Below, one piece after another: positions 1,792 through 20,411 of a stretch of 32,191 nt of DNA. The stretch lies in the NCBI GenBank assembly GCA_938028465.1, contig CALJAA010000166.1, forward strand, positions 1 through 32,191, in the 5' to 3' direction. The notes beneath the pieces are model-generated. The model saw nothing but the letters and a program-made list of their open reading frames with translations, searched no databases and had not been told where the DNA came from. Source of the stretch: an uncultured Granulosicoccaceae bacterium (GTDB lineage: Bacteria > Pseudomonadota > Gammaproteobacteria > Granulosicoccales > Granulosicoccaceae). The position numbers and the translations under genes are program-made. Each line of letters begins with the position of its first letter. Position 1 is the stretch's first letter.

Positions 1792-3081
1792 ATGTCAAAA
1801 GCTGAAGCCCTGTTTGAGCGTGCTCAACGCGTCATCCCTGGTGGGGTTAATTCTCCAGTTCGCGCCTTTGGTAGCGTAGGTGGCACGCCCCGCTTCATCG
1901 CGCGTGCCAGCGGTGCTTACGTGTTCGATACCGATGACAAGCAATACATCGATTACGTTGGCTCTTGGGGCCCGATGGTGCTTGGTCATGCCCACCCTGA
2001 GGTCATACGCGAGGTGCAAGAGACAGCAGCTAACGGATTAAGCTTTGGCGCGCCAACAGAGATCGAAACTGAAATGGCGGAGCGCATTTGCGAGCTTGTG
2101 CCTTCGATTGATCGTGTACGCATGGTGAGCTCGGGTACGGAAGCAACAATGAGTGCAATCCGTTTGGCGCGAGGTTATACCGGTCGCGACAACATCCTTA
2201 AATTTGAAGGTTGCTACCACGGCCATTCAGATTCACTGCTGGTAAAAGCAGGCTCTGGAGCGCTCACTCTCGGTGTGCCAAATTCTCCTGGTGTACCAGA
2301 AGCATTTGCACAGCACACACTAACGGTTCCGTTTAATGATCCAGAAGCACTTCGCGAGGTATTCAAACAACACGGTAAAAGCATCGCCTGCATTATTGTT
2401 GAACCCATCGCTGGCAACATGAATTTTGTAGCGCCATTGCCCGGCTACCTTCAAGCCATGCGTGACGTCTGCGACGAGTACGGTAGCGTACTAATTTTTG
2501 ATGAGGTAATGACCGGCTTTCGGGTAGCACTCGGTGGCGCACAAACACACTATGGCGTAACGCCAGATCTCACAACACTAGGTAAAGTTATCGGTGGCGG
2601 CATGCCAGTCGGCGCATTTGGTGGCAAGCAAGCGATAATGGAGCACATAGCGCCACTGGGCAAGGTGTATCAAGCCGGTACGTTATCGGGTAATCCAGTT
2701 GCAATGTGTGCTGGTTTAAAAACGCTGGAGCTCATCGCTAAACCTGGTTTTTTTCAAGCATTGGAAAAAAAGTCGGAAGCACTACTAGCTGGTATTAGCA
2801 CTGCAGCTAAAAAACACAATATCGGATTCACTAGTGACCATATAGGCGGTATGTTCGGTATGTTTTTTAGCGATCAAGTTAAGGTCAGCCATTTCAGTGA
2901 TGTGATGCAATGCAACACAGAACACTTCAATCAGTTTTTTCATTCCATGCTGGCATCAGGTATTAACCTTGCGCCATCTTCGTTTGAAGCAGGCTTTATT
3001 AGTGCTGCACACACCGATGAAGATATCAACAATACCATTGCGGCGGCTGACAAAGCATTTGCTGCTATCGCTAGTTCATGA
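1792..3081 (+). CDS. hemL: Glutamate-1-semialdehyde 2,1-aminomutase
   Basis: HemL is a PLP enzyme that converts glutamate-1-semialdehyde to 5-aminolevulinate, the precursor of heme and other tetrapyrroles in the C5 pathway. From the ATG at 1792 it is 429 residues. This start is preferred over an in-frame TTG at 1780 because GGAG at 1782-1785 lies six bases upstream, and the protein then begins [12 protein letters not shown] as usual for the family. The PLP-binding lysine is K265 in [18 protein letters not shown]. Other hallmarks are [26 protein letters not shown] and [11 protein letters not shown]. The downstream gene overlaps its stop by four bases. Confidence 0.97.
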
Positions 3082-3806
3082 GCGAGGGCCTCATCATAGC
3101 GATGTGGTCAGCGCCACGTAACATCTCTACAGCGATGATGCGCTCATGGGAAAACCGTAGCGATACGGTTGTTATTGATGAGCCCTACTACGCTAATTAT
3201 TTGCACGTCACTGGCATTGATCACCCAATGGCACAAGAAATCATAGACAGTGGCGATACTGATTGGCGCAGCGTTACTGCCGCTATTACTCAACCGCCAG
3301 CAAACGGCATTTTTTTTCAAAAGCATATCTGTACGCACAACTTACCGCACATCGATTTAACTTGGGTTAATGGCATCAGCAATGTGTTTTTGATCAGAGA
3401 CCCACACCTAGTCGTGGCGTCCTATGCAGCAAAACGTGAAGAATGTGTAGCCAGCGATTTAGGTTATGACTTACAGAAAGCTCTTTTTGACCAAGTCATA
3501 AACTGCGGGGTTAAAAAACCATTGGTTATCGATAGCGCGTTGTTTTTAGATAACCCACATGAACAGTTCACTATCTTGTGCGAAGAACTCGATATTCGTT
3601 TTGATGAGGCGATGCTGAGCTGGCCCGCTGGTGCACGTGACACAGATGGCGTATGGGGTAAGCATTGGTATAACGCTGTAAACAAATCGACAGGCTTTAA
3701 AAAGCAAAATACCGCGTACCCTGCACTAAGCGAGGCACAGCGGCGAGTTGCGGAAGAGTGCATGGCCGACTATGAAACAATTAAGGCATACGCCATTCGG
3801 CATTAG
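3078..3806 (+). CDS. PAPS-sulfotransferase-like P-loop protein
   Basis: This 242-residue soluble protein has a sulfotransferase-type nucleotide fold. Near the N terminus [15 protein letters not shown] matches the 5'-phosphosulfate-binding loop. [13 protein letters not shown], about 115 residues in, matches the 3'-phosphate-binding RDPxxxxxS motif of PAPS-dependent enzymes. The protein is otherwise poorly characterised: related domains have been attached to names such as branched-chain aminotransferase-like, which this is not. It overlaps hemL by ATGA at 3078-3081, so it is translationally coupled to a tetrapyrrole gene. The acceptor substrate cannot be told from sequence. It ends one base before the convergent outer-membrane gene, with no obvious terminator between them. 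Confidence 0.8.
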
Positions 3807-5182: not shown

Positions 5183-8017
5183 CTAACTCTCGTAAGTACT
5201 CAACGGTGGGCATGAGCAGATGAGGTGTTTATCACCATGTACGTTATCGATGCGCGCGACCGCTGGCCAGTATTTGCCATCAGTGTTGCCGCTTGGGAAT
5301 GCCGCTTGTTGACGCGTGTAACCGTGCGCCCAGTCATCACTCGTTACAGCGCTTGCCGTGTGCGGTGCATTGACTAATGGATTGTCATCTGCTGCCCATA
5401 CACCGTCTTTCACCTTTCTGGCTTCTTCATAGATAGCTAGCATAGCTTCGCAGAATCGATCAACTTCAGCCAGCGATTCACTTTCAGTTGGCTCAATCAT
5501 TAACGTGCCTGCCACTGGGAATGACATGGTTGGTGCATGGAAGCCGTAGTCCATTAAGCGTTTGGCAATGTCATCCACGGTGATACCCATGTCATCTTTA
5601 AGTGGGCGTGTATCGATAATGCACTCGTGAGCAACTCGATTGTTTTCGCCGCGATACAAAATGGGGTATACCGGTGACAGTCGATGAGCGATGTAGTTGG
5701 CGCTGAGTATCGCAACTTCCGTTGCGGATCGAAGGCCTTGCGCTCCCATCATGCGGATATACATCCAAGTGATCGGTAATATCATTGCACTACCCCATGG
5801 TGCCGCACTGACCACACCAGTGGCATCACCCAGCTCTCGATGGCCTGGGAGAAAAGGTTCGAGGTGTTTTCCTACTCCGATTGGGCCAATACCCGGGCCA
5901 CCACCACCGTGCGGGATACAAAATGTTTTGTGTAAATTAAGGTGCGATACGTCTCCGCCAAACTTTCCAGGCTGCGCAGTACCTACCATGGCATTAAGAT
6001 TCGCGCCGTCGATGTATACCTGGCCGCCTGCAGCATGTACGCGTTCGCAAACATCTCTAACACCCGCTTCAAATACACCATGTGTTGATGGGTAGGTAAT
6101 CATGACAGCCGATACCTTGCCTTCGTTGGCGTCGATCTTGGCTTGTAGATCATCAACATCTACGTTGCCTTGATCATCACAGGCACACACCACCACTTTT
6201 AAACCGGCCATTTGTGCACTAGCTGGGTTAGTACCGTGAGCAGAACTTGGGATCAAACAAATGTCACGATGCGCCTCTCCGCGGCTAGCCTGATAAGCCT
6301 TAATAGCCAGCAAGCCAGCGTATTCACCTTGGCTACCGGCATTAGGCTGCAATGACATGGCATCGTAACCAGTACATGCACACAACATGCTTTCAAGCTG
6401 GGTAATCATTTCGCGATAACCCACACTTTGCTCTTGTGGAGCGAACGGATGAATATCAGAAAACTCTGGCCAGCTAACCGGGATCATTTCAGAGGCTGCG
6501 TTGAGCTTCATGGTGCATGAACCCAGTGGAATCATTGCGGTATCGAGCGCCAGGTCTTTGTTTGCCAGCTTGCGCAGGTAACGCATCATTTCGGTTTCAG
6601 AGTGAAACTCATGAAAACAAGCTTGCGACATGTAATTGTGGGCACGCTCACTATCGCTGTTGCGCGATGCCGCTTGCTCAAGTGCGTCAACCGCTATCGC
6701 CTCACCTACGATCAAACCGGCAACCGCTGCAACATCGGCCTCTGAGGTTGTTTCATCAAACGACAATACGATTGTATTGGCATCGTGCTTACGTATATTG
6801 ATACCGGCAGCGTGACCAGCGGCAATGATTTTATCTGCATCGTCAACTGCTACAGATACCGTATCGAACCACTCTTCTTGCAACACATTGAGCTTATGCT
6901 TTTTAAGTGTTGCTACTAGTTGGTCAACCTTGCCTCTTACGCCCGCCGCTATATCACGCAAACCATCTGGGCCGTGATAGCAAGCGTAAAGCGTGGCAAT
7001 AATGGCCAGCAATGCTTGCGCGGTGCATATGTTTGACGTTGCCTTTTCGCGGCGGATATGTTGTTCACGCGTTTGTAACGCTAAACGATAAGCAGGCTCT
7101 CCACTTGCCGTAATCGATTGGCCAATTAATCGCCCCGGTAAATTACGCTTGTGCTTATCCGACGTTGCCATATAAGCCGCATGCGGGCCACCAAATCCCA
7201 TTGGCACGCCAAACCGTTGTGCACTGCCCACAGCAATGTCTGCGCCCCACTCCCCTGGCGGTGGCAAGAGCGTTAGTGCTAATAAATCAGCCGCAACAAT
7301 CACGATAGCACCGGTGTCTTTTGCAGCCTTAGCGATAATTTGGGGTTCACCGATATCGCCGTTCGTACCCGGATACTGGATCAACACACCAAAAACATCA
7401 TCGGCATTCGCAGCGATTTGAGCAGCAAGATCATCACTAGCCACAGTTGTCACCACGATGCCTAGAGGCTCTGCACGCGTGTTTAGAATGTCGATGGTTT
7501 GTGCATGACAATCACTGGCTACTAGAATTGTGTTGCGTTTGCCGCGTAACGCGCGATGCGCAAGTGCCATGGCTTCTGCTGCTGCCGTACCTTCATCAAG
7601 CAATGATGCGTTGGCCATGGGAAGCGCCGTTAGCTCGGTGATCATAGTCTGAAAGTTAAACAACACTTCTAGCCTACCCTGTGCAATTTCAGGCTGATAC
7701 GGCGTGTAGGCTGTATACCAAGAAGGATTTTCTAATACATTGCGCTTTATGACGCTGGGTAAATGACACCCATAATAGCCCTGCCCCAGCATGCTCTTAT
7801 TGATAATGTTTTTACTGGCTATTGCAGCAAGCTGCGCCAATGCGTCAGCCTCGCTAATACCACCTGCCAAAGCTAAAGCTTCCGTGCTTTGAATGTTGTC
7901 TGGCACGACCTCATCTATCAACGTTTTTAAATCAGCCACGCCTAATGCGCTAAGCATGGTTTGCTGATCATTTGAAGACGGGCCTATGTGACGGCGAACA
8001 AAGTTACTGTGCTGCAT
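5183..8017 (-). CDS. gcvP: Glycine dehydrogenase (decarboxylating), P-protein
   Basis: The P-protein of the glycine cleavage system decarboxylates glycine with PLP and transfers the aminomethyl group to the lipoyl arm of GcvH. At 944 residues it is a full-length single-chain form, with the two homologous halves fused. The N terminus reads [21 protein letters not shown]. The PLP lysine lies in the C-terminal half in [18 protein letters not shown]. The glycine-rich and substrate segments [12 protein letters not shown] and [15 protein letters not shown] are intact. It is last in the gcvT-gcvH-gcvP unit, 49 bases after gcvH, and shares control by the upstream glycine riboswitch. Confidence 0.98.
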
Positions 8018-8066
8018 AGCAAATAATATAGAAATCGAAAGTTAATAGAGTCGAAGCTGAAGCTAA

Positions 8067-12833: not shown

Positions 12834-13799
12834 CTAGTCGCCACCGTTTGATTGCTCGGCGTGCTCATAGGCCGCAACAATACGTTGAACCAACGGGTGC
12901 CTGACAACATCAGAAGCGCTGAAACGACAAAAACCAATACCATCGACATCTTCCAACACATTCTGTACGTGCTTAAGGCCAGACAACTGATGCTTGGGTA
13001 AATCCACCTGAGTAACATCACCTGTGACAATTGCTTTTGAGCCAAACCCGATACGGGTTAAGAACATTTTCATTTGCTCTACAGTCGTGTTTTGAGCTTC
13101 GTCCATGATCACACACGAATGATTAAGCGTTCGGCCACGCATGTAAGCCAAGGGCGCGATCTCGATTACGTTACGTTCAACTAATTTACCGACTCGTTCT
13201 ATGCCCATAAATTCGTATAGTGCATCGTAAATTGGCCGTAGGTAGGGATCAACCTTTTGCATCATGTCGCCTGGCAAAAATCCCAAACGCTCACCCGCTT
13301 CAACCGCAGGCCGCACCAGCACTAAACGCTGCACCTGCTCAGACTCTAAAAGCTCCACTGCACAAGCAACAGCTAAAAAAGTTTTGCCGGTCCCCGCTGG
13401 CCCAATACCAAAGCTTAGGTCACGCTCTTTAATACTATTGACATACTGACTTTGGCGTTCGCCACGACATTGAATTGTCGAGCGCCTAGTTTTGATCACC
13501 ACGCCTTGTGTTTCGGCAGCGCTGTTTAACATCATCTCTAATCCTGAATCCTGTAAAAATAAATGCACTCTGTCGGGTGCAAGCGTTTCCGTCTCTGTTG
13601 CTGCGTACAAGTGCTTGATAAGCTGCTGCGCGCTTTGGGCAGTTTTATCAGGGCCCACCACCATAAATTGATCACCACGGTTGCTGATCTGTACTTTCAA
13701 CCGCTCTTCAATTTGTTTTAGATGTTCGTCAAACTGACCACAAAGATTTGCCAGTCTGTCGTTATTTGCTGGGCTTATTTTAAATGCTAGTTCTGTCAT
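12834..13799 (-). CDS. ybeZ: PhoH-like ATPase (YbeZ)
   Basis: The 321-residue protein is a PhoH-family P-loop ATPase, thought to act with YbeY in rRNA processing. Walker A is GPAGTGKT at residues 133-140 and Walker B is CVIMDEAQN. The N-terminal part is a small KH/R3H-like region typical of Ybe[21 protein letters not shown] is a family-specific block. Its ATG overlaps the miaB stop as ATGA (13796-13799), so translation is coupled. ybeY follows 36 bases downstream. Confidence 0.95.
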
Positions 13800-15142
13800 G
13801 AAACGTTAGGCATGGGTGCGCTATCGATGGTTCCACGTAATGAGTTAGGCCTTACTTCGGTAATAACCACATCGACAAAAGAGCCGATCAGGCTTTCATC
13901 GCCTGCAAAGTTAACCACGCGGTTGTTTTCAGTCCTGCCAGCGATATCGCCCGTATGTTTGCGCGCTGGGCGCTCGACCAATACAGATTGTGTCGTCCCC
14001 AACATCGCTTCACTTATTGTCGCAGCTTGTCGTGTGATCGTCTGTTGCAAATGAGCAAGACGTTCTTTTTTAATGCTCATGGGTGTGTCATCAGCTAAGC
14101 TCGCCGCCGGCGTGCCAGGGCGCGCGCTATAAATAAAACTATACGAGTGATCAAAGCCAATTTCTTCAATTAACTTCATGGTGTCGGCGAAGTCTTTGTC
14201 TGTCTCACCAGGGAAGCCAACGATAAAATCAGACGACAAGGTGAGCTCTGGGCGTACAGCGCGTAGCTTACGTATTTTCGATTTGTATTCCAGCGTGGTA
14301 TGCCCGCGCTTCATTGCTGCCAATATACGATCCGACCCACTCTGTACCGGCAAATGCAAAAAGTTAACAAGCTCTGGCACATTGGCATACGCCTCAATGA
14401 GGGAGTCATTAAATTCGACGGGGTGTGATGTAGTAAAGCGAATACGCTCAACCCCTTCTATCGCTGCAACGTAGTGCACCAATAACGCTAAATCAGCAAT
14501 GCCACCATCGTGCATCGTGCCACGATAAGAATTAACGTTTTGCCCTAGCAAATGGATTTCACTAACACCCTGATCAGCCAGTGCCACCACTTCAGCTAAC
14601 ACGTCATCCATTGGACGGCTAATTTCCTCACCGCGTGTATAGGGTACAACACAAAAGCTGCAGTACTTACTGCAACCTTCAATGATCGACACATAGGCAC
14701 TTGGCCCTTCAGCATTAGGCTGGGGAAGACGATCAAATTTTTCAATTTCAGGGAAGCTAATATCCATCACCGTATTTTTGGTTGATTGGGATTGCTTCAA
14801 TAGTTCAGGCAAGCGGTGCAGTGTTTGTGGACCAAACACCGTGTCCACATAAGGCGCGCGTTGACGTATGACATCGCCTTCCTGGCTGGCCACACAACCA
14901 CCCACAGCAATGAGTAAATCCTTTTTCGCTTCTTTTAGCGGACGCCAACGACCCAGCTGCGAAAACACCTTCTCTTCCGCCTTCTCCCGAATCGAGCAGG
15001 TGTTGAGAAGCAATATGTCAGCTTCAGCCTCGTTATCGGTTTTTTCGATGGGGCCATCTTCTGCGAGAACATCCAACATCTTCGCCGAGTCGTACTCGTT
15101 CATCTGGCAGCCGTGCGTTCTGATAAATACTTTTCGTGTCAT
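13796..15142 (-). CDS. miaB: tRNA-2-methylthio-N6-dimethylallyladenosine synthase
   Basis: MiaB is a radical-SAM methylthiotransferase that adds the 2-methylthio group to i6A37 of tRNAs reading UNN codons. From the ATG at 15142 the protein is 448 residues and starts [19 protein letters not shown], as in the family. An in-frame TTG 18 codons upstream gives an unusual extension and is not preferred. The auxiliary cluster cysteines are C12, C49 and C83, and the radical-SAM CxxxCxxC is C157, C161 and C164 in [19 protein letters not shown]-terminal TRAM domain follows. It is the first gene of the miaB-lnt block. Confidence 0.96.
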
Positions 15143-15196: not shown

Positions 15197-15597
15197 TTTT
15201 GTGTGATCAGTGAGCCAGAGAGCATGCTCATGTGCTGGCGACTCTTACAAATTATTGACTCAGCTGGCTGCAAGACAGGGTGCGATCATCACGGCTACAC
15301 GCTTGTGAATGGAATTCAACGACCTATATCCTACTCTGCTCTACCACACAGATAAATATAAGCTATTGTTTTAATTAACTATATCTATTTTAGCATTAGC
15401 GACAGCATTTTACCGCAAGCTTCTTACGGTAAGGGCTCTGGATTTTGAAAAGCCCCCCATCTTTAGGGCACGAAAAATGTAAGATAATTAGCAACATAGC
15501 ACCGGTTTGGGTCATTAATTGGCAACGGGGCTGACTCAAGTACCTCGTTGTACGCTTTTCCCGTGTTACCACGGCACCCAAATGAATCACAGACGAT
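15197..15597. other. Intergenic region between miaB and cysNC
   Basis: This 400-base divergent spacer contains an AT-rich stretch around 15340-15395 and an inverted repeat TTACCG (15410-15415) / CGGTAA (15427-15432). A possible GGGCT/AGCCC hairpin lies near 15433-15456. I see no convincing gene, RNA or cysD remnant. Promoters for miaB and cysNC must lie here, but no -35/-10 pair stands out. Confidence 0.5.
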
Positions 15598-17319
15598 ATG
15601 GATAACAATAATCAGCCAAACAAAAGCCAATTGCGCTTTGTTACTTGGGGCAGCATCAACGACGGCAAGAGCACGCTAGTCGAGCGATTGTTGTCTGAAG
15701 CTGCCAAGACGACATCTGATCGCCACAACTTTATCGTTGCCGACGCACCTGGCAATGAAATCTATACGCCCGAGATGATTACTGACGCATCCAATGCAGA
15801 TATTGCCATTGTATTGTGTGATGCGGATGAAGGAATACAAAAACAAACACGACGCCATGCCTATGTATTGGCAACGCTGGGTATTAAACATATTGTATTA
15901 GCTGTTAACAAAATGGATGTCAATGATTACAGCGAAGCCGTATTCAACGACATCGTTATTGATTTCAATGAATACGCAGAGCAACTTGAATTCGACACCA
16001 TAACGGCCATACCTGTTTCGGCCCTTAAGGGCGACAACGTTAGCAGCAAGAGTGACGCTACACCGTGGTACGACGGCACTACCCTGTTGTCTCACTTAGA
16101 AACAGTAAAGGTTGATAATGAGTCACGACGCAATGCACCGTTTCGCATGCCGGTTCAATCAGCAAACTCTGTCAATGCCGATACCTTAGGCTTTTACGGC
16201 ACTATCGTCAGTGGCTCAGTAAAGCCTGGTGACGCACTTCGGATTGCACCTTCGGGCAAGTCAGGCACTATTGATCGCGTTATTGAAAACGATGCGGATC
16301 TTACTCAAGCCGTCGCAGGCCAATCGGTCACGCTAACCCTTAAGGGTAATGTGGTACTTGAGGTTGGCGATGTACTGGCCAGTACCGAAATGCCGATCAG
16401 CGCCGCTGATCAATTCGAAACTACCATCGTGTGGATGAGCGAGGACGCGCTACTACCTGGCCGCCCTTACCTACTTAAGCTTGGTACCAAAACGGTTGTT
16501 GCAACCATTACCGATATCAAGCACAAAGTTCATGTGAATACCTTGAGCCAGCTAGCTGCTAAACAACTCGAATCTAATGACATTGCTGTGTGCAATATCA
16601 GTACGGGTCAGCAAGTTGCCTATGACGCGTTTAGTGAGAACTCAGACACCGGCGGCTTTACGCTGATCGATAGAGAAACCAACAACACCGTGGGAGCTGG
16701 CATGGTGCATTTTGCACTACGCCGTTCTGACAACATACATATGCAAGCTGTCGATGTTGACAAGCAAGCACGATCAACCATGAAAAACCAGAAAGCATGT
16801 GTGGTTTGGCTAACCGGCTTATCAGGCTCTGGTAAATCCACAGTAGCAAATATCGTAGAGCGAAAACTTGCTGCAATGGGTCAACACACCTATCTACTCG
16901 ATGGCGACAACGTACGCCACGGATTAAATAAAGACTTGGGCTTTACAGATGCCGACCGAGTAGAAAACATTCGACGCATTGGAGAAGTCGCCAAACTCAT
17001 GGTGGATTCTGGCCTTATCGTTATGACAGCCTTTATCTCGCCCTTTAGATCAGAGCGCGGCCTTGCCCGTAGCTTGGTTGATGAAGGCGAGTTTATTGAA
17101 GTACACGTTGATACTCCACTAGAGATAGCCGAGTCGCGTGACCCTAAGGGCTTGTACAAAAAAGCGCGCAGAGGTGAACTGAAAAATTTCACAGGTATTG
17201 ATTCACCTTACGAAGAACCAGAAAACCCTGAGATCAAAATCGATACTGGTAAACACTCTGCTGAAGAAGCGGCAGATATCGTGATTGAAGAGCTAAGTAA
17301 AGGTGGCTTATTGGGCTAG
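15598..17319 (+). CDS. CysN-CysC fusion with switch-I-deleted GTPase, intact APS kinase
   Basis: The protein is 573 residues. Residues 12-370 match CysN, the regulatory GTPase subunit of ATP sulfurylase: P-loop GSINDGKST (18-26), NKMD (104-107), SALKGDN (141-147), then beta-barrel domains with [11 protein letters not shown]. Residues 397-573 are a complete APS kinase that makes [13 protein letters not shown] (407-415), DGDNVRHGL (435-443), ISPFRSER and [18 protein letters not shown]. Against canonical CysN, about 48 residues are missing between the P-loop and G3. Switch I and the G2 GITID motif are gone, and G3 reads DAPGNE instead of DTPGHE, so the GTPase is probably inactive. The frame is intact. 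No cysD lies alongside. It may be a PAPS-making kinase with a structural or pseudo-GTPase domain. Confidence 0.88.
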
Positions 17320-17327
17320 CCCACCCA

Positions 17328-20300
17328 CTAGGCGACCTTAGTATCGCAACGGCCGTTGTCTAACCATGCCTCTAGCGCTTGTAACTGCAGAGGCTTAGCA
17401 AAATAATAACCCTGAGCTTGCTCACAGCCCATCTCGGTGATCAGCCTCATTTGTGATTCTGTTTCCACACCTTCTGCTATCAAGTTCAACTCTAGGCTTT
17501 TGCCCAGCGCTATCACCGATCGAACAATAGAGACATCCACGGAACCTTCGTCATCAGTATTATCAAGATCAAAAATAAAAGATCTATCAATCTTTAAACT
17601 ATTAATGGGCAGCTTCTTTAGATAACTCAATGAAGAATACCCGGTACCAAAATCATCGATCGACACTCTGATGCCCATATCACGCAGCTGACCTAGCTTA
17701 ACAACATTGGCTTCAACTTGTGTCATAACACCACTTTCAGTTATCTCTAGCTCAAGCAAGGTCGCTGTGAGTTGAGTCATTTTTAGAATTTTGGAAACCT
17801 GCTCTATAAAATCACTTTTCTGCAACAGCTGCACCGATAGGTTCACCGCAACGGAGATAGCTTGGCCTTTAAGCTCCCACTGACGAGCCACTCTGCACGC
17901 TTGCTCTAAGGCGTACAAATCTAGTTGCGAGATAAATCCCGTCGACTCTGCAATGGGGATAAACTCATCAGGCATCGAATGAAATATTGTACCCTCGGGT
18001 GTATCCACCACCCAACGCATCAGAGCCTCAACACCGCATACCTCTCCGGAGGCTAAATCTATTTTCGGTTGGTAGTAGAGCTGGAACTCATTGTTATAAA
18101 TGGCAGAGCGCATTTCTTGATCGATGCGTAAGAACACACGCTCTTCCACACCCATATCGGTTGAAAAATACGCCATGCAGTTTTTACCTTGTGCCTTTGC
18201 ATGATACATCGCAGTATCGGCATGCTTTACCAAGGTTTCGGCGTTAACGCCATCGTCAGGAAAAAAGGCGCAACCAACACTACCCGTCACTGCTAGCGTT
18301 TGTTTTTCTATCTCAAACGAGTTCGACAATTCACATAAAATTTTATCAATAACGCTAGTGATCTCGCCTTTGCGCTCAGCCTGATCAATAATCAGAGTGA
18401 ATTCATCACCACCTAAGCGAGCGATAAATACAGAGGGCGACACAGCGCTTTCAAACAACGCTTCAAGCCGCGCGGCCACCGCCTGCAACAAATGATCTCC
18501 AGCACCATGCCCAAGTGTATCGTTGATATGCTTAAAACCATCAAGGTCTATAAACAGTACCGCAAACTTTCGACTTATTTTGGCAGCTTGCCTGCATTGA
18601 CGAGCTAACTCCTGCTGAAAGTTTAAGCGATTGGGTAAACCGGTAAGCGCATCATATCTGGCCAAGGTATAGAGCTCACTATTAGCTGATTCCAAACTAT
18701 TCTTTTGTTGCTCTAATGTTTCAATTAGATAGCGATTACGCATAGCATTGCCGATGCTGTTAGCGGTACTTTCAAGATCAAGATGCTCTTGGTCCGATGG
18801 GTCGATCAATAAAAACCCAAATAGTTTTTCGCCAGCATGCACTGGACACATAATCAACAAGCCGTTTGTTAATTCACGCTGTAGCGAAGCAGGCAATAAA
18901 TCGACGGCTAAAAACGTTTCATCCGTGCAGGCCTCTACCATGCCTTGACGAAAAACATGCACTAAATTGGCTCGCTCACTTGGTTGCAAAGCCGGTTTGG
19001 AAAACTTAATCAAAAAGCTACGTTCTACACCGAGTGTTTCTAACCAGTCAGCTAATACGTGGAGAATCTCGCCGAACTCCGTACATGAGCTCATTTGCAA
19101 CTGCATTCGATTTTGTACAATCTCAGCCCTATGCATCTCAAACTCATGATCAAGGCTAACAGACCAAGCGCGCTCGCGTATTTGCGCAAGAATAGTTAAT
19201 ACAAATTGTTCGTACTGCTCCCCGCTTTGCTGTAACAGCATTATTTCGGTGTGATACGTCAGTTGGTGACTAAGGTTGCTCCACCAATGTATATCTTCAT
19301 ATTTAATGCTGGTATCAAGGTGTTGTTCAATATAGTCAAATAATTTATTGTTGCCCGTAAGCAATGACTCCCAGTAGGCTTGCGTAACATCAGATATGCT
19401 CACGCCATTGGGCACGATTAACCCAGCCAATGATAAAACAAGGTCACCGCGTATTTTTTCCACTGAGTAGTTAATCGTAGCGGCACCATCATCGGATTGA
19501 CTTTTAGTCGAACCACGAACAATTAGCTCGTTATCGACAATCACAACATCAGGGGTTTGCTTCGTATCCTTATTTTGTGTGTAGCCATCTTGTGAATAGC
19601 CGCGGATCGTTTCCAGTAATAACTCAACACAACTAATTGCAATGGACTCGATCGGTTGCCTTACCGTTGTTAACGCGGGGGCGTTTTTGGTCGCATCTGG
19701 CGTGTCATCAAAACCGGTAACCGCAATGTCGTTCGGAATACGAAACCCCTCGGCTGAAATTGCACGCGCTGCACTTAAGGCCATTAAATCATTGGCCGCC
19801 ACTATCGCATCCGGTGGAGCTGATACCTGTAATAATTCAGTTACCGCTGCATAGGTTTCAAATTTATCGTAGTTACCTTTAATGAATAGCGCTTCGTCAA
19901 TCGCCCGGTTGTATTCTGTCATCACTTCGCGAAAAACAGTTTCGCGACGCAATGAGTACGGATCATTATCGTAGCCTCGAATATAGGCAATGCGTTGCCT
20001 ACTATCATCATTCAACAGATGACACATCAGCTGGCGCATTCCGGTGAGATCGTCTAACAGCACGCTGGGCACGCCGGTGGTGGATGCATTGAGACTGATC
20101 TTGGGGATGTTGAACTGTGTAAGAAACCGCTCAAGCACGTCCGCATCAACACTGTGCCCGATACTGCCTGAGATACTGATTAACCCCTTAATCCGACGAG
20201 AGTGTGCTAATGCATAGATTGCATTGCAAGCTGGTCGCGCTCCATCACGATCATCGCACTGACTTAACTCCCGCCCTGCAATGCACAACAAGCCATAACC

Positions 20301-20411
20301 CCTTTCATTCAAGGCCGCTGAAATCGTATCGATCACCAGCTTAGGATAGTGAGTGTACTCATCGGTCAGTATGGCTATGGTGCCATTGACTTGATGATTT
20401 ATAGAGCTCAT
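17328..20411 (-). CDS. LacI-type sensor–GGDEF–EAL c-di-GMP enzyme
   Basis: The 1027-residue protein begins with a LacI/periplasmic-binding type ligand domain (residues 8-300; GTIAILTDEY, AIVAANDLMALSAARAI, IAVTGFDDTP). There is no helix-turn-helix, signal peptide or membrane helix, so it should be cytosolic. A helical linker and a GAF-like region span about 310-570. GGDEF follows, with RLGGDEF at 665-671, then EAL with EALMRW at 795-800. The EAL catalytic set is complete: NLS, ELEITESG, IDDFGTGYSS, LKIDRSF and AEGVE. The GGDEF signature is intact, but no RxxD inhibitory site precedes it. Both cyclase and phosphodiesterase activity are possible. The ligand is unknown, probably a sugar or similar small molecule. 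No clear Shine-Dalgarno. Confidence 0.93.
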   Translation of the reverse strand: MSSINHQVNGTIAILTDEYTHYPKLVIDTISAALNERGYGLLCIAGRELSQCDDRDGARPACNAIYALAHSRRIKGLISISGSIGHSVDADVLERFLTQFNIPKISLNASTTGVPSVLLDDLTGMRQLMCHLLNDDSRQRIAYIRGYDNDPYSLRRETVFREVMTEYNRAIDEALFIKGNYDKFETYAAVTELLQVSAPPDAIVAANDLMALSAARAISAEGFRIPNDIAVTGFDDTPDATKNAPALTTVRQPIESIAISCVELLLETIRGYSQDGYTQNKDTKQTPDVVIVDNELIVRGSTKSQSDDGAATINYSVEKIRGDLVLSLAGLIVPNGVSISDVTQAYWESLLTGNNKLFDYIEQHLDTSIKYEDIHWWSNLSHQLTYHTEIMLLQQSGEQYEQFVLTILAQIRERAWSVSLDHEFEMHRAEIVQNRMQLQMSSCTEFGEILHVLADWLETLGVERSFLIKFSKPALQPSERANLVHVFRQGMVEACTDETFLAVDLLPASLQRELTNGLLIMCPVHAGEKLFGFLLIDPSDQEHLDLESTANSIGNAMRNRYLIETLEQQKNSLESANSELYTLARYDALTGLPNRLNFQQELARQCRQAAKISRKFAVLFIDLDGFKHINDTLGHGAGDHLLQAVAARLEALFESAVSPSVFIARLGGDEFTLIIDQAERKGEITSVIDKILCELSNSFEIEKQTLAVTGSVGCAFFPDDGVNAETLVKHADTAMYHAKAQGKNCMAYFSTDMGVEERVFLRIDQEMRSAIYNNEFQLYYQPKIDLASGEVCGVEALMRWVVDTPEGTIFHSMPDEFIPIAESTGFISQLDLYALEQACRVARQWELKGQAISVAVNLSVQLLQKSDFIEQVSKILKMTQLTATLLELEITESGVMTQVEANVVKLGQLRDMGIRVSIDDFGTGYSSLSYLKKLPINSLKIDRSFIFDLDNTDDEGSVDVSIVRSVIALGKSLELNLIAEGVETESQMRLITEMGCEQAQGYYFAKPLQLQALEAWLDNGRCDTKVA

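Follow-up and report, generated by a model that had tools for sequence, protein, structure and literature searches.

A CysNC protein without switch I in Granulosicoccus: a probable pseudo-GTPase fused to an intact APS kinase

In canonical sulfate activation, GTP hydrolysis by CysN drives the formation of adenosine 5'-phosphosulfate (APS). What remains for a CysN to do when the parts that serve GTP turnover are gone? The question is raised by a gene at positions 15598..17319 (+ strand) of a 32,191-nucleotide stretch of DNA, hereafter the window (contig CALJAA010000166.1), from an uncultured bacterium of the family Granulosicoccaceae, probably a Granulosicoccus. The gene encodes a CysNC protein of 573 residues, in which CysN is fused to the APS kinase CysC, and it lacks 48 residues of the GTPase (G) domain. 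The window genome (G000; genomes, contigs and loci carry our handles, G, C and L) is a metagenome-assembled genome (MAG) made up of 223 contigs (4.1 Mb in total), with a completeness of 88.76%. The explanation that we favour, at a probability of roughly 57%, is that the protein is a pseudo-GTPase which acts as an APS kinase on APS made by an unrelated ATP sulfurylase, Sat, giving 3'-phosphoadenosine 5'-phosphosulfate (PAPS) for sulfation.

The protein passes the NCBIfam cut-offs for CysNC (NF004035, 769.3 vs 715 bits) and CysN (TIGR02034, 419.4 vs 336.1 bits), and does not reach that of the CysN equivalog NF003478 (407.3 vs 590). Pfam places a complete, C-terminally fused APS kinase at residues 400-549 (PF01583, 239.3 bits) after two beta-barrel domains, and matches the EF-Tu GTP-binding domain only from residue 35 on. 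Pseudomonas syringae CysN (1zun_B) is matched in two separate pieces, a weak one that pairs residues 8-49 with chain positions 21-62 and another that pairs residues 41-370 with chain positions 102-432. Nothing in the window protein corresponds to the stretch of chain in between, which holds switch I. From DGKST to D[AT]PG[HN]E the window protein has 27 residues, against 75 in 96 of the 99 framed loci (110 loci were searched, 11 being without a frame, and several are the same gene fetched twice). L003 and L032, a single gene of a second species obtained from two collections, likewise have a spacing of 27, and the spacing in L079 is not measurable. An independent length count over 80 loci agrees: across this stretch 78 are longer than the window protein by 46-52 residues, L032 is equal and L079 starts too late to be judged. 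Alignment to canonical copies shows that the deletion begins at the end of helix alpha1 and takes away switch I, the GITID (G2) motif and strand beta2, with 30 near-invariant columns inside the gap. These counts bear out the sequence-only reading of this DNA, which had placed a loss of about 48 residues, with switch I and G2, between P-loop and G3.

The remaining motifs are altered to different degrees. The P-loop (G1; residues 18-26, 15649..15675) reads GSINDGKST for canonical GSVDDGKST, positions 20-21 having changed from VD to IN. The deletion junction follows at residues 38-44 (15709..15729). In both deletion-bearing species G3 is DAPGNE (residues 49-54, 15742..15759) instead of DTPGHE, its His lost, as first noted from the letters alone. 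G4 (NKMD, residues 104-107, 15907..15918) and G5 (SALKG, residues 141-145, 16018..16032) are present in a clean open frame, also as described earlier. Within the CysN beta-barrel domains II and III (residues 181-371, 16138..16710), 15 of 29 near-invariant positions are changed in domain II and 4 of 26 in domain III. The APS kinase half (CysC; residues 396-573, 16783..17316), by comparison, keeps 70 of 70 near-invariant positions, which agrees with the earlier description of it as intact. The predicted structure retains the EF-Tu-like three-domain fold. The predicted local distance difference test (pLDDT) score of the loop at the junction (39-44) is below 50; the first 82 residues of a canonical control model also score below 50, hence switch I is not compared from it. 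Nor does any cysD adjoin the gene in the neighbourhood checked, again as had been stated. The sequence gives good support to the claim that this variant is unable to drive CysD in the normal manner, since switch I and G2, the G3 His, the cysD of the locus and many domain II invariants are all lost. We infer that GTPase activity has been lost and that the CysC half is an active kinase.

Set against known systems, the window protein is closest to CysNC/NodQ (NF004035; M. tuberculosis CysNC, Rhizobium NodQ), with which it shares the domain order, the predicted fold of the CysN half, the family score, a kinase with all near-invariant residues and the locus of an inherited cysNC. It differs from these in the 48 residues (switch I, G2 and beta2), the G3 His, the domain II invariants and the adjoining cysD. 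Unlike the CysN of the CysDN ATP sulfurylase (1zun_B), it has no switch I or adjoining CysD gene, and it carries CysC. It resembles stand-alone CysC, or Sat-APS kinase fusions of the PRK05537 type, in its APS kinase chemistry and would work with Sat-supplied APS; unlike them, it joins its kinase to a probable pseudo-GTPase, with Sat encoded separately on another contig. Pseudo-GTPases in general keep the GTPase fold after loss of the turnover motifs, as the window protein does. Among the titles and abstract starts listed in open-access searches, none points to a CysN without switch I or to a pseudo-GTPase derived from CysN.

The deletion is not confined to one genome. A MAG of a second Granulosicoccus species (G005) carries a protein 86% identical to the window protein, with a deletion of the same length at the same place and in the same surroundings. 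Nonsynonymous (dN) and synonymous (dS) divergence between both genes (NG86) is 0.085 and 2.08, the synonymous sites being saturated. By region, dN and dS are 0.158 and 1.56 for the G domain and 0.033 and 1.87 for CysC (NG86), or 0.152 and 1.83 and 0.029 and 1.40, respectively (YN00). These values indicate that the gene is under purifying selection between both species. Because the second species has the same deletion at saturated dS and low dN, the deletion is not an assembly error and the gene is probably not a decaying copy. For the deleted pair, with MiaB 93.0% identical, identity is 79.3% for the G domain, 86.4% for the barrels and 95.9% for CysC; 19 canonical pairs with MiaB at 88-94% range from 82.2 to 92.1 in the barrels and from 91.2 to 97.1 in CysC. 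Thus the barrels and kinase are now held as tightly as in canonical copies, the G domain less so. A decaying pseudogene is rejected as the principal explanation on the saturated dS, the low dN and the barrel and CysC identities within the canonical range; it survives in a weaker form as the passenger rival discussed below.

Among the matches listed from 57 genomes (36 of the family), only those in G000 and G005 span residues 1-573. Among those listed from 369 genomes of the class (G005 not in the rows), no other match runs through the junction; an early-starting one in G354 (8-100, 31%) was rejected as the same deletion, as it sits in a 402-residue frame of EF-Tu length. Plasmids gave 361 records with a match, the best 15 of which span 45-51 residues beyond the query stretch and are canonical.

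How the gene came to stand without cysD can be read from its locus. The canonical order is miaB followed divergently by cysD and cysNC, and in 21 of the 24 CysD-bearing Granulosicoccus genomes both genes share a contig, with miaB no more than 3 kb from cysD; in the remaining three (G011, G015, G022) miaB is on another contig or no miaB orthologue was obtained. In G000 and G005 the deleted cysNC alone stands beside miaB (13796..15142, - strand, in the window), cysD being gone. In the CysN tree the deleted pair branches together with G004, G011, G015 and G020, and its partners in the CysC tree are these genomes except G015 (support 93, not starred, in each); both trees omit 3 of 29 family loci (G013, G022, G033) and 1 of 10 outgroups, which gave no frame. 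By MiaB, G000 and G005 are nearest to G010, G011, G013, G015 and G020, with weak support (73). Since it occupies the ancestral site beside miaB, the window gene is most simply a vertically inherited cysNC whose cysD was lost. A recent extra paralogue is rejected on this locus and on the tree placement.

The branch lengths suggest when the CysN half changed. The stem of the deleted pair measures 1.04 changes per site in the CysN half (sister tips 0.12-0.25; own tips 0.07 and 0.21) and 0.36 in CysC (sister tips 0-0.12; own tips 0.04 and 0.04). Identity to nine outgroups is 49.5-52.6% for the deleted G domains vs 58.5-72.2% in the other 26 rows, and 52.5-55.9% vs 62.4-71.0% for the barrels; for CysC it is 75% vs 72.3-75.6%. 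These comparisons indicate a burst of change that fell mainly on the CysN half, after which constraint returned. In the canonical CysNC of G020 (L004) the G2 region reads EREQSITID, not EREQGITID. With a G-domain identity of 76.2% between G015 and G020, below that of the other pairs at similar distance, this points to a possible early relaxation of CysN in the Sat-bearing clade.

If CysD is gone, where would APS come from? CysD is found in 24 of 27 genomes of the genus, those without it being G000 (89% complete), G005 and G010. The search for a separate cysD or sat that had been proposed from the sequence thus yielded only the latter: on another contig the window genome encodes a free-standing Sat of 397 residues, an unrelated, GTP-independent ATP sulfurylase. 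Both deletion-bearing species have this Sat, with 373 of 397 residues identical. No second APS kinase and no second CysNC was found in G000, where the window protein is the only APS kinase found. Across the genus the Sat domain (PF01747) occurs in 12 of 27 genomes. In four of them (G001, G003, G017, G021) it shares a frame with an APS kinase, which suggests Sat-APS kinase fusions of the PRK05537 type. In the other eight (G000, G005, G010, G011, G013, G015, G020, G022) it is seen without a kinase in frame, the frame in G013 being cut at 271 residues near a contig end. AprA passes its cut-off in seven of these eight, the exception being G000, which has matches below the cut-off only; of the 11.6-kb apr stretch of G005, only two short pieces are found in G000 (C187), inside one flanking gene. 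Sulfite and nitrite reductases (PF01077; NIR_SIR) are found in 25 of 27 genomes, and no such protein was found in G000 or in G003. G010 has Sat and AprA, with no CysD or CysNC found; because its contig ends 108 nt past miaB, loss and gap are not distinguishable there.

These gene contents fit a scheme in which a Granulosicoccus lineage retained the inherited CysNC, though both cysD and the parts of CysN that serve GTPase turnover were lost. The C-terminal half would be an ordinary APS kinase, converting APS and ATP to PAPS and ADP, with APS presumably flowing to it from Sat. The N-terminal half would be a conserved pseudo-GTPase, a folded EF-Tu-like body unable to switch, without the usual GTP hydrolysis or CysD coupling, serving the kinase as a structural, possibly nucleotide-bound, platform. 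In the window's organism PAPS would go to sulfation and not to sulfate reduction; the simplest reading of the gene content is that G000 does not reduce sulfate. A Sulfotransfer_5 protein 12 kb from the gene (PF19798, 211 bits; 3078..3806, + strand) is a possible consumer of PAPS, by an association that we infer. Precedents exist for separate parts of this scheme. Excised from CysN, the CysC domain of M. tuberculosis retains its activity (PMC4373884), and NodP/NodQ of Sinorhizobium form a sulfate-activating set devoted to sulfation (PMC1780047). The CysN residues around switch I and switch II adjoin the CysD contact regions (PMC5770160). Of the roles offered by the sequence-only reading, that of a PAPS producer and that of a partner of a different sulfurylase fit the gene content, with Sat in both species; the scaffold and a direct partnership with Sat would be conjecture. 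The third role, a GTP-binding sensor, is possible, as the scored contact residues of G1, G3, G4 and G5 are kept.

Several observations weigh against this explanation. The G000 Sat is of the sulfur-oxidiser type, its best PDB matches being 1jhd and 4dnx, which come from a Riftia symbiont and from Allochromatium vinosum. In A. vinosum this type of Sat is reported to favour ATP formation, and assimilation proceeds via CysDN (PMC3779200). Sat and CysD occur together in G011, G013, G015, G020 and G022, so Sat alone does not force the loss of CysDN. Beside the G000 Sat lies a 256-residue protein (L168:7882-8652) that passes the Pfam cut-off for the PAPS reductase domain (PF01507; 45.9 vs 22.5), although it passes none of the four NCBIfam cut-offs listed for it; given this protein, some reductive use of PAPS may persist in G000. 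The corresponding spot in G005 (L169) is partly matched, with a 59-residue open frame, and the gene looks degraded there. With the G000 MAG 89% complete, the absences of cysD, canonical cysNC, CysI and AprA may be assembly losses. Assimilatory sulfate reduction is reported in 8 of 8 Granulosicoccus MAGs from kelp in one study (PMC9238374). G005 keeps the deleted form although it also has a canonical cysNC, next to which the end of a cysD lies at the contig edge. The G-domain identity of the deleted pair falls below that of 18 of the 19 canonical pairs (84.8-96.3; the exception is G015-G020), and the canonical pair nearest in distance (MiaB 93.8) has a G domain 90.9% identical. The CysC stem, too, is longer than its sister tips.

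The lower conservation of the G domain relative to the nearest canonical pairs, together with the lengthened CysC stem, weakens our explanation and strengthens a rival in which only the kinase is selected. The CysN half would then survive as a passive passenger, because a fused N-terminal domain is rarely removed in frame, and would be eroding slowly. We consider this unlikely, though it deserves serious attention. The long stem of the CysN half and the losses in domain II fit it, as does the G-domain identity, which 23 of 24 listed canonical pairs (MiaB at 87-97%) exceed. Erosion sits poorly, however, with barrels as well conserved as those of canonical pairs from comparably distant species and with a G-domain dN/dS of about 0.1. 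Moreover, the nucleotide-contact residues scored in G1, G3, G4 and G5 are intact (11 of 11), as against changes at 25 of the 69 remaining near-invariant positions of the G domain (Fisher p = 0.014); the motif set was our own choice and leaves out P-loop positions 20 and 21 and the G3 His. The same retention of the P-loop GKST, DxxG, NKxD and the G5 Ser in both species amid background change speaks for a nucleotide-locked sensor, in which the N-terminal half would bind GTP or GDP without turnover and set kinase activity by the guanine nucleotide pool. Switch I closes over the nucleotide and Mg2+, and its absence tells against such a sensor, as do the change of P-loop position 21 from D to N and the low confidence of the predicted junction; we regard it as doubtful. 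The fuller version, a non-hydrolysing guanine-nucleotide sensor that gates PAPS synthesis and was fixed after Sat had made CysD dispensable, seems hardly less so.

A role for the deleted protein as a regulatory or decoy subunit, which would join or compete with a canonical CysD-CysNC and so tune sulfate activation, is suggested by G005, where contig C55 (L142:1-1967) opens with the last residues of CysD, followed by a canonical CysNC. In the CysN tree this copy falls among G021, G009 and G002 (support 100, starred), as it does in the CysC tree (90), and not with the kin of its species; it was probably acquired horizontally at a later time, or else lies on a chimeric contig end. A subunit of this kind is improbable for the window protein: no CysD was found in its genome, the switch II and domain II residues are changed, the switch regions adjoin the CysD contact (PMC5770160), and a later-acquired partner leaves the origin of the deleted form unexplained. 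The flank of the G005 copy was found in G000 on C141 and C32, with no cysNC there, although a canonical cysNC may lie in a gap of the G000 assembly. The earlier reading had held that a complete cysDN elsewhere, together with absence of the deleted form from relatives, would suggest a decaying copy. The former is partly seen in G005, as a cysNC with a cysD end, but the deleted form is conserved in a relative, and decay is therefore disfavoured. An assembly or frame artefact, which might be suspected since both genomes are MAGs, is scarcely credible, given a clean frame without stops and an equal length and place in a second-species MAG with diverged DNA.

The genes for sulfate assimilation in the genus show further variation. 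There are two very distant types of CysI, one in G021, G009, G002 and G025 and the other in G010, G011, G013, G015 and G020. The CysI of G005 (L222:4540-6294, compared with L215 and L219-L221) is of the former type, 68% identical at best, which is no more than suggestive of a horizontal origin. At its N terminus, CysD of the genus is extended by about 280 residues that resemble helix-turn-helix and IS630-transposase sequences (e.g., L034:6202-7950), scoring 27.5 bits for HTH_28 (cut-off 25) and 46.7 for NF033545, below the cut-off of 100. The extended form occupies open frames of 580-672 residues in 22 of 24 genomes, and L041, L042, L049 and L053 are full-length matches outside the genus; here a DNA-binding domain is apparently joined to a subunit of ATP sulfurylase.

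Upstream of the window gene, a 34-nt element (15467..15500, + strand) that starts 131 nt before the ATG is 32/34 identical in G005 within an otherwise diverged intergenic region, and is a candidate promoter or operator. An origin as the inherited cysD promoter was rejected, as its local alignment scores against the miaB-cysD intergenic regions of 14 loci of relatives did not exceed the shuffled maxima. A sigma-70 scan found nothing. Downstream, at 17328-20411, lies a gene for a long sensor protein with GGDEF and EAL parts by eye; its G005 counterpart (L032:10771-13047, 758 residues) ends after the GGDEF part by eye, and what looks like an ion channel gene lies between it and cysNC. A near-identical stretch of about 25-30 nt (L142 ~7996-8042) recurs at eight or more sites in G000 and at several in G005, in the manner of a short interspersed repeat.

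In the pseudo-GTPase explanation, this lineage would have dropped the partner and the hydrolytic apparatus of a G protein and kept the rest under selection beside an intact APS kinase. If the sensor reading were true instead, an energy-coupling G protein would have been converted into an allosteric domain of a kinase. The window protein would offer a natural separation-of-function form, a means to learn how the CysN body serves the kinase fused to it beyond GTP turnover, and it lets one ask how a GTP-dependent sulfurylase gets displaced by a GTP-independent one. For the family, it suggests that annotation as CysNC does not imply a GTP-driven ATP sulfurylase.
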